DNA of 64,000 nucleotides from Hyphomonas jannaschiana VP2 (GTDB lineage Bacteria > Pseudomonadota > Alphaproteobacteria > Caulobacterales > Hyphomonadaceae): positions 186,001-250,000 of the forward strand of contig NZ_ARYJ01000001.1 of assembly GCF_000685215.1 (NCBI RefSeq), in the 5' to 3' direction. A program made the position numbers and the translations under genes. The notes beneath the pieces were generated by a model. It was not told the origin of the DNA. It worked only from the letters and a program-made list of their open reading frames with translations, and did no database searches. Of the stretch, positions 19,786-24,357 are shown one piece after another. Positions within the stretch are counted from its first letter, which is position 1. Each line of letters opens with the position of its first letter.

Positions 19786-21126
19786 ATGACCTCCCCCATC
19801 GTCCGCTTCGCCCCGTCTCCCACTGGCCGCCTGCATGTCGGCAATGTGCGCACCGCGCTCATCAACTGGCTGTTCGCCAAGGGCCAGGGCGGCAAGTTCA
19901 TCCTGCGCATCGACGATACCGACGTGGAACGCTCCACGAAGGAGAACGAAGACGCGCTGAAAGTGGACCTCGAATGGCTGGGCCTCGTCTGGGCCGACAC
20001 GTTCAACCAGTCCGATCGTTTCGCCCAGTATGACGCTGCCGCCGAAAAGCTGCGCGGCATGGGCCTGCTTTATCCCTGCTACGAGACCGCCGACGAGCTG
20101 GACCGCAAGCGCAAGATCGCCCTCTCCCGCGGCCGCCCGCCGGTCTATGACCGGGCGGCGCTGAGTCTGACGGACGACGAAAAGGCCAAGCTGGAAGCCG
20201 AAGGCCGCCAGCCGCACTGGCGCTTCAAACTCTCCGGCGAGCGCGTGGAATGGAACGATCTCGTACGCGGCCCGCAGAGCATCGACACGTCCAGCCTGTC
20301 GGACCCGATCCTGATCCGCGAGGACGGCTCTTATCTCTACACCCTCCCCTCCGTCGTCGATGACATCGAGGCCGGCATCACCCATGTCGTGCGCGGCGAG
20401 GACCATGTGACGAACTCTGGCGCCCAGATCGAGATCTTCAAGGCGCTCGGCGGCACCGCGCCGGACATGGCGCATACGCCACTGCTGATCGGCGCGGACG
20501 GCCAGGGCCTGTCGAAGCGTCTCGGTTCGCTCTCGATGGGCGAGCTGCGCGCGCAGGGCTATGAGCCGATGTCGATCTGCTCGCTGCTGGCGAAGATCGG
20601 CACCTCAGACAATGTGGAAGCACGCGAGAGCCTGGACCAGCTGGCCGCCGAGTTCGACTTCAGCAAGATCGGCCGGTCGCCTGCCCGTTTCGACGAAGCC
20701 GAGCTGAAAGGCCTGAACGCCTCCATCCTGCACGCCCTGCCCTTCGACGCGGTGAAAGACCGCCTCGCCGCGGTGGACCCGCGCGCCGCCGATGAGGCCT
20801 TCTGGACCGTGGTGCGTGAGAACTGTTCCCTCCTGCCGGAAGTGGGCGCCTGGGTCGACACTGTGTTCGGCGACATCACCCCGCTTGTGGATGACGAGGA
20901 CAAGGACTTCGTCGCCACGGCCGCGACACTGCTGCCGGAAGGCGAGCTGACGGGTGAGACCTGGAGCCAGTGGACAAACGCCGTGAAGGCAGAGACGGGC
21001 CGCAAGGGCCGCGGCCTGTTCATGACGCTCCGCAAGGCGCTGACCGGCCAGGAACACGGCCCCGACATGGGCGCCATCCTGCCCCTGATCGGACGCGAAC
21101 GTGCACTGAAGCGGCTGGGCGGCTAA
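19786..21126 (+). CDS. gltX: Glutamate--tRNA ligase
   Basis: The 446-residue class I synthetase has the HIGH-type signature SPTGRLHVGN (11-20) and a KMSKS-equivalent LSKRL (242-246). The Gly before that Leu, in place of the usual Lys, is typical of alphaproteobacterial enzymes. It charges tRNA-Glu, and often tRNA-Gln for later amidation by GatCAB. The ATG at 19786 is preceded by a short AT-rich leader. Upstream in-frame codons lie over the divergent lipoprotein and are not counted. The gene ends shortly before two LexA-type sites. Confidence 0.95.
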   Translation: MTSPIVRFAPSPTGRLHVGNVRTALINWLFAKGQGGKFILRIDDTDVERSTKENEDALKVDLEWLGLVWADTFNQSDRFAQYDAAAEKLRGMGLLYPCYETADELDRKRKIALSRGRPPVYDRAALSLTDDEKAKLEAEGRQPHWRFKLSGERVEWNDLVRGPQSIDTSSLSDPILIREDGSYLYTLPSVVDDIEAGITHVVRGEDHVTNSGAQIEIFKALGGTAPDMAHTPLLIGADGQGLSKRLGSLSMGELRAQGYEPMSICSLLAKIGTSDNVEARESLDQLAAEFDFSKIGRSPARFDEAELKGLNASILHALPFDAVKDRLAAVDPRAADEAFWTVVRENCSLLPEVGAWVDTVFGDITPLVDDEDKDFVATAATLLPEGELTGETWSQWTNAVKAETGRKGRGLFMTLRKALTGQEHGPDMGAILPLIGRERALKRLGG

Positions 21127-21165: not shown

Positions 21166-21199
21166 GTTCCCCCTATGTTCACGTGAACAAATGAAGTAC
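21166..21199. promoter_or_regulatory. Paired LexA (SOS) boxes upstream of DUF3892-like gene 1
   Basis: A perfect alphaproteobacterial LexA box, GTTC-N7-GTTC, spans 21166-21180. Four bases later 21185-21199 is a 7-of-8 match in the opposite orientation (GAAC-N7-GTAC). They lie about 70-100 bp upstream of the ATG at 21269. The same double arrangement occurs before the paralogue at 21864. Confidence 0.72.
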
Positions 21200-21268
21200 T
21201 TTTTGCTTGTATTTCCCATAATGTTATGAGTTAATCGTAATCACTCACCACGGGAGAGGAGAGATTCG

Positions 21269-21673
21269 ATGGCTAGACTTGTAATAACTGGTTGCGTAGC
21301 AGACGGAGCTGATGCTGATCGGACAATCGACGTCGTGTATGGTGACGGTTTTCGATTGCGTATGGACAAAGCTGTAGAACTTGCTCTCGCGGGCGTGGAA
21401 TTTTGGGCGAAGATGCCAGGAATAACCATCGCTAGAGTGAGGGTTCAAAAATCCGTATCGGGAAATTATTATCTCCGGACTCACCCTGATGCGTGGGTCG
21501 CGAACAATCTTGGAAAAATTTGTTCCACCAACAGGGCTTCGAAGCTCGCATCCGCGAATTCTTTGGCGTCCGGATTTTCATATGGATTGACGCGGCAACG
21601 AACTGATCGGAACGCCCTTGCCAATGCTAGCAAACGCTCCCCTTTTCTGAGCAGCCTCACTCGCGACTTGTGA
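21269..21673 (+). CDS. DUF3892-like protein 1, putatively SOS-regulated
   Basis: The 134-residue product has an N-terminal domain of about 85 residues whose pattern (strand with DVVYGDGF, helix with AVELALAG, then GNYYLRTHPD and NNL) resembles DUF3892, a small domain of unknown function. It aligns throughout that domain with the next gene (MARLVITGC versus MVRLVIKGC; AGVEFWA shared). Residues beyond about 90 are unrelated and look like a diverged or frameshifted tail. Its base composition is lower in GC than the flanks. A GGGAGAGGAGAG ribosome-binding site precedes the ATG. Upstream are paired LexA boxes. Confidence 0.65.
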   Translation: MARLVITGCVADGADADRTIDVVYGDGFRLRMDKAVELALAGVEFWAKMPGITIARVRVQKSVSGNYYLRTHPDAWVANNLGKICSTNRASKLASANSLASGFSYGLTRQRTDRNALANASKRSPFLSSLTRDL

Positions 21674-21723
21674 TGCACGGACCTCGCGACCGCTAAGACA
21701 AGCTTACCCAACTCACTGATTTT

Positions 21724-21758
21724 GTTCCGTTTTGGTTCGACGTGAACAAAAATGGAAC
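21724..21758. promoter_or_regulatory. Two perfect LexA (SOS) boxes upstream of DUF3892-like gene 2
   Basis: GTTC-N7-GTTC spans 21724-21738 and GAAC-N7-GAAC (the same box on the other strand) spans 21744-21758, five bases apart. Both are exact matches to the alphaproteobacterial LexA consensus. They lie about 105-140 bp upstream of the ATG at 21864. Confidence 0.78.
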
Positions 21759-21863
21759 TTTTTCCTTTCCAAATCATAAATATTCTGCTTATGTTCTCAT
21801 ATCGCGGGGCCGACGGAACGCACCCGCAAACTGGGTTCAAATGCATAAGCTGGGAGTTGCGTG

Positions 21864-22187
21864 ATGGTACGGCTGGTTATCAAGGGATGTGAGTTCGATC
21901 CGGCGCAGGTGAAGGATGTCGTCTATGGCGACAGCTTCCGCATGGAGCTCGACAAGGCGATGGAACTGGCAGACGCCGGGGTCGAATTCTGGGCCGCAGG
22001 GCCGGACGGCGCCATGGCCCGCGTCATCCTCGGCGAGAACGAATATGGCGAGCGCATCCTGAAGACCGAAGCCATCGCCTTCGCGGCCAACCATCTCGGT
22101 GAAATCGTTGCCCCGCCTGTGGTGCGCCGCCCCTACCGCGCCGAGACGCATATCCCTGCACGGATGGACTTCGCCGTCGCAGCCTGA
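21864..22187 (+). CDS. DUF3892-like protein 2, putatively SOS-regulated
   Basis: The 107-residue protein is a paralogue of the preceding gene over its first 85 or so residues (RLVIKGC, DVVYGDSFRMELDKAMELADAGVEFW in spaced agreement, ANHLGEIV). The DUF3892 resemblance is partial, since the YLRT segment reads RILKT here. It is GC-rich like the chromosome, unlike its neighbour. I start at ATG 21864 rather than GTG 21861 by alignment with the paralogue. A cytoplasmic protein of unknown role; the two upstream LexA boxes suggest induction by DNA damage. Confidence 0.68.
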   Translation: MVRLVIKGCEFDPAQVKDVVYGDSFRMELDKAMELADAGVEFWAAGPDGAMARVILGENEYGERILKTEAIAFAANHLGEIVAPPVVRRPYRAETHIPARMDFAVAA

Positions 22188-22213
22188 TCGCTGCCCCTGA
22201 CGTTACGCAGCGG

Positions 22214-22286
22214 CCCTCACCTCCCGCCCGCGCCAGAACGGTGCAGTCACCTCCCCCGTATTTGGCCCGGACGCGGGAGGTGAGGG
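22214..22286. repeat. Long-loop 14-bp inverted repeat downstream of the DUF3892-like pair
   Basis: CCCTCACCTCCCGC (22214-22227) and GCGGGAGGTGAGGG (22273-22286) are perfect inverted repeats with a 45-nt loop. It may terminate one or both of the convergent transcripts entering from the DUF3892-like genes and mccA, or be a dispersed intergenic repeat. Confidence 0.6.
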
Positions 22287-22299
22287 CTTTGAGGGATCA

Positions 22300-22355
22300 G
22301 AAATCGCACTGCGATTTCCCCGACTTCGAAGGATAAGCGAACGCACTGCGTTCGC
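22300..22355. repeat. Two tandem palindromes sharing the core CGCACTGCG
   Basis: 22300-22318 is a 9-bp-arm palindrome, GAAATCGCA and TGCGATTTC around a single C. 22337-22355 is another, GCGAACGCA and TGCGTTCGC around a C. The shared centre and similar size suggest two copies of one repeat family in the mccA downstream region. The 265-bp gap 22188-22452 holds nothing else that I can identify. Confidence 0.65.
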
Positions 22356-22452: not shown

Positions 22453-24357
22453 CTACTCCGCCATCAGCTGGACGAGCACGTCCCCTTCGGAGACCTGGTC
22501 GCCCACCTTGCCCGTCACGGCTTCCACCACACCGTCGCGCGGCGCCGTAAGGGCATGTTCCATCTTCATGGCTTCCATGACGGCAACCGTATCGCCGCGC
22601 GTCACCTCTGCGCCCACTTCCACCGAAATCGACAGGATCTTGCCCGGCATCGGCGCGCTGACACTGTCACCGCCGAGGACGGCTTCGACATCCGCGTCGA
22701 ATTCCGGCACTTCCACCAGCACCGTGTCGCCGCCCGTCGTGACCGCATAGCGCCGGGGCGAAATGTCGGTCACCAGCGGCAAGGGTGTGTCAGGATCGAC
22801 CGGATGCTCTTCCGGATCCACCCAATTGGCATCGGCGCCAACGGCCACCATGGCCTTATGCACCGGCGCCCTGTTCATACGCCAGCCATCCTGAATGCCC
22901 CACGGCGTCGCCCCGCCCGCCTCATTGAGGCGCACATCGCAGACCGCCATGACAGAGGCATGCTGGTGCTCCGCAGGCGGAAGGGTTAGCGCATCGCCTG
23001 CCTCTGCAATCCAGTTCACATGATGGGAATGGTTGAGGAAAGCATCCGACGCGGCACACCGGCGCAGGAAGCCCGTATTGGACGGCACGCCCGCCAACTG
23101 CAGGTGCGACAGGGTATCGATCAGGCGCTCACAGGCAGCGCGGCGGTTGCCTTCATGCACGATCAGCTTGGCGATCATGGAGTCGTAATTCGACGGCACG
23201 CGGTCACCCGTCTCGAAGCCGGCATCCCAGCGCACGATCTCGCCATCGGCGGGTTCCATCATGCCGAATTCCAGGATCAGGCCCGCGCCGGGTCGGAAGC
23301 CTTCGGCCGGGTCTTCGGCGCAGATGCGCGCCTCGATGGCATGGCCATGAAGCGGAATGTCCTGCTGGTGCAGCGGCAGCAATTCGCCGGAGGCCACGCG
23401 CAGCTGCCACTCGACCAGGTCCTGACCGGTAATCATCTCCGTGACCGGGTGCTCCACCTGAAGGCGGGTGTTCATTTCAAGGAACCAGAATGTGTCGAGC
23501 GCCAGCGGTTTTGATCCGTCCACGATGAATTCCACCGTCCCGGCGCCTTCATATTTCACGGCCTTGGCGAGCGCCACGGCGGCATCCGTCATCGCCTTTC
23601 GCACGTCTTCCGGCATGCCGGGCGCGGGCGCTTCCTCGATGACTTTCTGGCGGCGGCGCTGCAGCGAGCAGTCGCGCTCATAGAGGTGAACGGCATTGCC
23701 GTGGCTGTCGCCGAACACCTGCACCTCGATATGGCGCGGCTGCTCGACCAGCTTCTCAAGCATCACGCGGCCATCGCCAAAGCTGCTTTCGGCCTCGCGT
23801 ACCGCACTTTCCAGTTCACCCGCCAGCTCCGAGGCTTTCGAGACGAGGCGGATGCCCCTGCCCCCACCGCCGGCGACAGCCTTGATCAGCAGCGGGAAGC
23901 CGATCTCCTTGGTTGCCTCGGTCAGCGTCTTGGCGTCCTGCGCTTCGCCGCGATAGCCGGGCAGTACGGGCACGCCGGCTTCTTCCGCGATGCGTTTGGC
24001 TTCATCCTTCGGCCCCATGGACCGGATCGCGGCAGCCGGCGGGCCAACCCAGATCAGCCCGGCCTTCACCACGGCCTCGGCAAAGTCGGCATTCTCCGAC
24101 AGGAAGCCATAGCCCGGATGGATCGCGTCGGCGCCGGTCTCTTTGGCCGCCGCGATGATCGCGTCGGCCTTGAGGTAGCTCTCGGCGGCTGGCGCCGGGC
24201 CGATATGTACGGCCTCGTCGGCCTCGCGCACATGCTTGGCGCGCGCATCGGCGTCCGAATAGACGGCGACGGTGGCAATGCCGAGATCCCGGCAGGTGGC
24301 AAAGATGCGGCAGGCGATCTCGCCCCTATTCGCGACGAGAAGCTTCTCGATTTTCAT
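22453..24357 (-). CDS. mccA: Methylcrotonoyl-CoA carboxylase, biotin-containing alpha subunit
   Basis: The 634-residue protein carries a biotin carboxylase module (N-terminal KLLVANRGEIACR, ATP-grasp GGGGRGIR, catalytic FLEMNTRLQVEHPVTE region) and a C-terminal biotinyl domain with EAMKMEH, Lys598 being the biotinylation site. Length and context fit the MccA/LiuD subunit of leucine catabolism; the MccB partner lies at 27819-29426 on the same strand. A role as a generic acyl-CoA carboxylase cannot be excluded by motif alone. Its first 32 bases overlap the end of the upstream DUF817 gene, which implies cotranscription. Confidence 0.9.
   Translation of the reverse strand: MKIEKLLVANRGEIACRIFATCRDLGIATVAVYSDADARAKHVREADEAVHIGPAPAAESYLKADAIIAAAKETGADAIHPGYGFLSENADFAEAVVKAGLIWVGPPAAAIRSMGPKDEAKRIAEEAGVPVLPGYRGEAQDAKTLTEATKEIGFPLLIKAVAGGGGRGIRLVSKASELAGELESAVREAESSFGDGRVMLEKLVEQPRHIEVQVFGDSHGNAVHLYERDCSLQRRRQKVIEEAPAPGMPEDVRKAMTDAAVALAKAVKYEGAGTVEFIVDGSKPLALDTFWFLEMNTRLQVEHPVTEMITGQDLVEWQLRVASGELLPLHQQDIPLHGHAIEARICAEDPAEGFRPGAGLILEFGMMEPADGEIVRWDAGFETGDRVPSNYDSMIAKLIVHEGNRRAACERLIDTLSHLQLAGVPSNTGFLRRCAASDAFLNHSHHVNWIAEAGDALTLPPAEHQHASVMAVCDVRLNEAGGATPWGIQDGWRMNRAPVHKAMVAVGADANWVDPEEHPVDPDTPLPLVTDISPRRYAVTTGGDTVLVEVPEFDADVEAVLGGDSVSAPMPGKILSISVEVGAEVTRGDTVAVMEAMKMEHALTAPRDGVVEAVTGKVGDQVSEGDVLVQLMAE

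Follow-up and report, generated by a model that had tools for sequence, protein, structure and literature searches.

Two adjacent small genes beside gltX in the window (the whole stretch of 64,000 nucleotides analysed here) raise the question of whether a DUF3892-like gene pair has come under the control of LexA. An earlier note on this DNA had read them as two DUF3892-like paralogues, each behind a pair of LexA boxes, and had suggested that they represent a damage-inducible small-protein family.

The gene pair and its surroundings

The two genes (Table 1) lie between gltX (+ strand, ending at 21126; Pfam tRNA-synt_1c) on one side and a convergent gene on the − strand (22453-24357), which reads as a biotin-dependent carboxylase subunit, on the other. 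The start of gene 2 was put at the ATG at 21864 because this ATG is common to the 16 orthologues read, which most likely gives a protein of 107 amino acids. Gene 1 is AT-richer than gene 2, as had been noted earlier: its GC content is 50.6% (GC3 46.7%) versus 63.9% (GC3 77.8%) for gene 2, in a window of 62.0% GC. The promoter of gene 2 is also AT-rich, with 44.8% GC. One homologue of gene 1 was found besides gene 1 itself, at 68% identity in a Hyphomonas oceanitis MAG, and this single relative together with the AT-richness suggests that gene 1 either arrived later or is a copy that diverges fast.

Downstream of gene 2, a GC-rich inverted repeat (22213-22287, with perfect 15-nt arms 45 nt apart) is followed by two short palindromes (22301-22317 and 22338-22354). 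Stretches resembling this repeat and these palindromes were seen beside some of the orthologues.

Table 1. Features of the gene pair and of its promoters, in positions of the window; scores and ranks are those of the LexA matrix
Feature	Position	Strand	Sequence or description	Score	Window rank
Gene 1 composite operator	21166..21199	.	GTTC-N7-GTTC-N4-GAAC-N7-GTAC, LexA-like, inverted		
Gene 1 forward box	21166-21180	+	GTTCCCCCTATGTTC, GTTC-N7-GTTC	14.1	5
Gene 1 reversed box	21185-21199	-	GTACTTCATTTGTTC, 7/8 match	16.6	4
Gene 1	21269..21673	+	134 aa, DUF3892 (PF13031), AT-rich, basic, pI 10.0		
Gene 2 composite operator	21724..21758	.	GTTC-N7-GTTC-N5-GAAC-N7-GAAC, LexA-like, inverted		
Gene 2 forward box	21724-21738	+	GTTCCGTTTTGGTTC	18.3	2
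Gene 2 reversed box	21744-21758	-	GTTCCATTTTTGTTC	21.1	1
Conserved promoter core	21755..21798	+	GAACTTTTTCCTTTCCAAAnnnTGAATATTCTGsTTATGTTCTC, 19-promoter alignment		
Gene 2 third box	21782-21796	+	ATTCTGCTTATGTTC, ATTC-N7-GTTC	17.7	3
Gene 2	21864..22187	+	107 aa, acidic DUF3892-like protein, short basic tail		

The boxes fit the motif of the genome's own repair genes

All four boxes described in the earlier note were found again at the same coordinates, and we added a third box at gene 2, absent from its list, whose position is presumed to be the core promoter of this gene. Counted as the bare GTTC-N7-GTTC pattern, the boxes are weak evidence: four matches were observed in the window versus 1.89 expected, 15 of 100 shuffles reached four, and the excess in the whole genome is modest (93 matches versus 61 for the reversed pattern). 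Since the count in the window was not significant, we built a motif specific to this genome. The candidate training sites came from 20 loci around the GTTC-N7-GTTC sites of the genome, and the nine with a DNA-repair gene directly behind the box were kept (rmuC, a dinB-type polymerase, a radical-SAM protein, a photolyase, uvrA, lexA, recN, comM and mmcB). These genes were identified via Pfam, which for recN gave no more than AAA/SMC-type domains and for the radical-SAM protein no more than Radical_SAM. The resulting LexA matrix has 21 columns and is built from these nine boxes, all located elsewhere in the genome.

The results of the scan showed that the five sites in the two promoters occupy ranks 1 to 5 of the 127,958 positions of the window, with scores from 21.1 to 14.1, the sixth site scoring 12.5. 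When each of the nine training sites was in turn left out of the matrix, it scored 13.2 to 28.0, a range that includes the candidate boxes. In 200 Markov-simulated windows of 64 kb, sites scoring at least 14.1 numbered 0.49 on average and three at most, and a score above 21.07 was reached in one simulation. None of 300 column-permuted motifs placed more than three of its top five window sites in the two promoters, while the real motif placed five. The claim that such a cluster of boxes is not expected by chance was thus not borne out by the bare count and was borne out by the genome's own motif. The type of the box, for all five sites, is that of the repair genes of this genome, as looked for in members of an SOS regulon.

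A sigma-70 scan gave two matches versus 1.0 expected, neither of which coincides with the start presumed for gene 1 or for gene 2, so the −10 assignment is one that we infer. An Rfam search gave nothing close to the gathering score.

The promoter of gene 2 is conserved within Hyphomonas

A search of 61 genomes gave relatives of gene 2 in 16 of the 37 Hyphomonas genomes and in none of the 24 from other genera. When gene 1 was used as the query, a match was obtained in 18 of 42 Hyphomonas genomes and none in the other 24, so that gene 2 is dispensable. One of these 24 genomes, G027, has the gene 2 promoter at a contig end, and the alignment of Hyphomonas gene 2 promoters was made from this promoter and those of the 18 matching genomes.

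Comparison of the 19 promoters showed that the reversed box (score 13.0-21.1) and the third box (score 17.7-22.1), which lies 38 bp from the reversed box, are kept in all of them, while eight have no forward box and the other 11 a perfect one. In those eight, the reversed box persists as a direct repeat with a score of 13.0-16.4. Its half-sites do not vary across the 19 promoters, while four positions of its spacer do. The double-box layout that the earlier note had called conserved is therefore kept in 11 of these promoters and missing from the other eight. Orthologues without boxes, which it had named as evidence against its reading, were not encountered, every promoter having the reversed and third boxes; conservation of the box before orthologues, as looked for in an SOS regulon, is thus seen for gene 2.

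The conservation is not limited to the boxes. The region between the reversed and third boxes is nearly invariant across the 19 promoters, as are CTTTTTCCTTTCCAAA and TGAATATTCTG, so LexA sites alone are insufficient to account for the conservation of the promoter. Part of the conservation outside the boxes is presumably that of the promoter itself. When up to two mismatches were allowed, GAACTTTTTCCTTTCCAAA was found once each in 17 of 61 genomes, and the reversed-pattern control gave six matches in total. Gene 2 itself is under purifying selection, with a dN/dS of 0.01-0.17 in 10 pairs over the first 80 codons.

Chance matches, with GTTC-rich sequences supplied by intergenic DNA that is AT-rich while the window is GC-rich, would agree with the non-significant bare count and with the low GC content of the gene 2 promoter. 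The probability of this explanation is negligible in view of the two boxes kept in every promoter, the top five ranks under the own-genome motif and the permuted-motif control, and the conservation taken with the recA-type layout described below speaks strongly against it.

An inverted composite of boxes is common to the gene pair and recA

The forward and reversed boxes form an inverted composite at both genes. The perfect double form of this composite (gap of 0-30) was present in 11 of 42 Hyphomonas genomes, at one place in each and with a control of 0, and by coordinates all 11 are at the gene 2 promoter (at the contig end in G027). The nine training promoters have no paired inverted partner; around their boxes, further sites scoring at least 12 were limited to two, one at uvrA (12.0) and an overlapping one at the radical-SAM gene (14.0).

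The paired layout is not private to genes 1 and 2, and is also that of recA in Hyphomonas. The recA promoter of this genome carries the composite GTTTCTGCTTTGTTC-CATA-GAACAAACGTGGTAC, and the same composite stands at each of the 30 recA loci read in Hyphomonas, out of 42 genomes with recA. A matrix score of 11 or more is reached by the reversed half in all 30 loci and by the forward half in only 12, which makes the forward box of recA a weak one. Each of the two recA boxes is one base short of perfect (GTTT-, GTAC-), so that boxes with one mismatch at genes 1 and 2 are not disqualified. Points against LexA control include the non-significant bare count, the imperfect outer half-site of the reversed box of gene 1, the forward box missing from eight gene 2 promoters and the weak forward box of recA.

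The recA-type pattern TGTTC-N4-GAACAAA-N4-GTAC was searched in 398 genomes of the order Caulobacterales. Exact matches were found at 54 places in 53 genomes (38 Hyphomonas and 15 others), with a control of 0, and 345 genomes had no match. Fifty-two matches are located before recA, 26 of these being assigned by a peptide motif, 21 by coordinates and the L202, L210, L201, G599 and G758 loci individually. One of the two others is at gene 1, and the last is at a contig end (G011), where the promoter is recA-like and no gene is in view.

Comparison of the gene 1 composite with the consensus of the 43 distinct recA-type composites showed that 23 of 28 positions are common. In addition to the inverted composite, gene 1 has the outer half-site GTAC and the N4 gap of the recA operator. 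At gene 2 the gap is N5, the outer GAAC is perfect, a third box is added and the exact pattern does not match. A further difference is that eight of the 19 gene 2 promoters lack the forward half, which shows that gene 2 can do without the recA-type layout.

The same comparison bears on whether a regulator other than LexA could recognise GTTC-N4/5-GAAC, the resemblance to LexA boxes being due to common half-sites. Such a regulator would fit the inner GTTC-N4-GAACAAA, constant in the 43 composites (where it is fixed by the search pattern) next to an outer left half-site that is mostly GTTT, and it would fit the confinement of the perfect double form to one promoter in the genus. We consider it very unlikely, since the third box scores as LexA without an inverted partner and is kept in every gene 2 promoter, the reversed box stays a direct repeat when the forward box is absent, and the composite is found mainly at recA, a classical LexA target.

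No description of the paired boxes or of the recA layout was found in the parts consulted of the open-access literature searched. Two opposed LexA-like boxes with a 37-bp gap and scores of 19.1 and 17.2 were also seen at G000:C1:456427-456493 (L079: 1228 and 1280), where they precede a C5-cytosine DNA methylase with an N-terminal helix-turn-helix (Pfam), possibly a further paired-box gene. Three intergenic GTTC-N7-GTTC matches, two with a common half-site, were seen at G000:C8:7869-7919 (L090: 1270-1320).

Proposed control of genes 1 and 2 by LexA

With boxes that are present, conserved and arranged as at recA, genes 1 and 2 are very likely under LexA control and members of the Hyphomonas SOS regulon, and both are probably switched on by DNA damage. 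In undamaged cells, LexA dimers would sit on the paired inverted boxes and keep the genes off by co-operative repression, and at gene 2 an additional LexA would occupy the third box, which presumably covers the core promoter. When RecA assembles on single-stranded DNA, self-cleavage of LexA would release genes 1 and 2 along with recA.

According to the parts consulted of PMC12700426 and PMC9578287, the LexA regulon of Caulobacter crescentus has an identical box and spacing. The difference is in the two or three boxes and the inverted layout found here, about 97% of Caulobacter SOS promoters having a single box (PMC12700426, part consulted). The locus is a gene pair that is probably controlled by LexA; one member is conserved in much of the genus, and the layout of the boxes is of the recA type. 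The DUF3892-like family would thereby gain a specific expression condition, DNA damage, tied to recA via the common operator layout. Alphaproteobacterial LexA may also act via two direct-repeat boxes in inverted orientation at a fixed distance of 4 or 5 bp; if this is true, such pairing would enable imperfect boxes like those of recA to function.

The proteins

The product of gene 1 passes the Pfam cut-off for DUF3892 (PF13031) with 24.7 bits (cut-off 22.3) over residues 18-82, while that of gene 2 matched no Pfam family at E<=1. The description of both as DUF3892-like paralogues is thus upheld by Pfam for gene 1, and gene 2 is a remote relative by profile: the profile of its relatives matched one of eight alphaproteobacterial DUF3892 sequences with a probability of 73.5% and an E-value of 2.9e-5 across 56 columns. 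The two proteins are 42% identical in alignment A1. Besides falling below Pfam detection, gene 2 differs from DUF3892 in being acidic: in 16 orthologues the net charge of the domain is -6 to -8 and its pI 4.2-4.6, the tail being basic. The predicted model of gene 2 (mean pLDDT 81; strands, a helix and three strands) is good over about residues 1-86 and below 50 at residues 87-107.

The 14 database matches of gene 2 are all from clusters without an informative name, and the search for structural relatives gave no confident match by sequence or by fold. Neither protein has another Pfam domain above the cut-off, NCBIfam gave no family match, PADLOC gave no anti-phage family for either protein at E<=1, and PHROGs gave matches of unknown function only (best E-value 0.0092, for gene 2). 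A mobile origin was rejected, no relative of gene 1 being found in phage or plasmid collections or in viral contigs, nor any relative of profile A1 in viral contigs.

The acidity of the gene 2 domain suggests that it binds a protein and does not bind RNA or DNA directly. A protein-binding SOS modulator is the reading that we prefer, weakly. That the proteins act as small SOS-induced effectors or modulators is a tentative and rather doubtful proposal. It is unlikely, in our judgement, that a dedicated two-dimer inverted LexA operator of Hyphomonas and some relatives serves recA and the DUF3892-like family, with the gene 2 protein as a partner or brake of RecA that is produced in parallel with it, resembling the SOS modulator DinI and having an unrelated fold.

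The LexA sites could also be real while the products are sensors of RNA or ribosomes, which would make them an anti-phage or dormancy device linked to SOS; this role is compatible with LexA control. In the part consulted of PMC12419801, DUF3892 is said to have the same fold as dsRBD and HPF, and fusions of DUF3892 to Min-Wnt effectors are proposed to sense viral RNA or modified ribosomes. The basic character of gene 1 would suit such sensing, as would a DUF3892 gene with a strong box that adjoins a lysozyme-like gene in another genome (G115, see below). This role is distinctly unlikely, however, given the strongly acidic domain of gene 2, the PADLOC result, the lack of a fused second domain and the lack of phage, plasmid or viral relatives, and a protein-binding modulator remains the preferred reading.

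DUF3892 beyond this locus

Of 385 alphaproteobacterial genomes searched, 17 contain DUF3892. Among 19 other alphaproteobacterial DUF3892 loci, one (G115, L133) has a box of at least 14.1 within 400 bp, with a score of 28.0, and the remaining 18 have none, the next best site scoring 13.9 (L123). The idea of DUF3892 as an SOS family in general was rejected on this count, so that the damage-inducible family suggested earlier would apply, if at all, to this Hyphomonas branch. A second, divergent Hyphomonas DUF3892 gene (L116, G063:C24:22563-22865; 31.6 bits) has a best upstream site of 10.3. The part consulted of PMC8987031, which mentions both DUF3892 and the SOS response, does not report a regulatory link between them.

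The box of G115, GTTCTTTTTATGTTC, is located 112 bp before the start of the DUF3892 gene in a distant alphaproteobacterial genome, the sole one from its order in the collection. The recA and uvrB genes of this genome, named by reading, also have an upstream GTTC-N7-GTTC. Evidence against this box is that the bare pattern is rarer in the genome than its reversed control (23 versus 89). By a rough estimate, the probability of one such box in 19 loci by chance is a few per cent. The genes on either side of the box are divergent, and its target could be the lysozyme-like neighbour (Phage_lysozyme, 21.8 bits, just below the cut-off of 22.3) instead of the DUF3892 gene. Three family copies in the same genome (C122:1311, C122:2187 and C142:4906; L162, L163 and L165) were seen to have identical boxes, GTTCCTTTTATGTTC, 56 bp before them; these are small proteins, read as secreted, and are possibly under SOS control.
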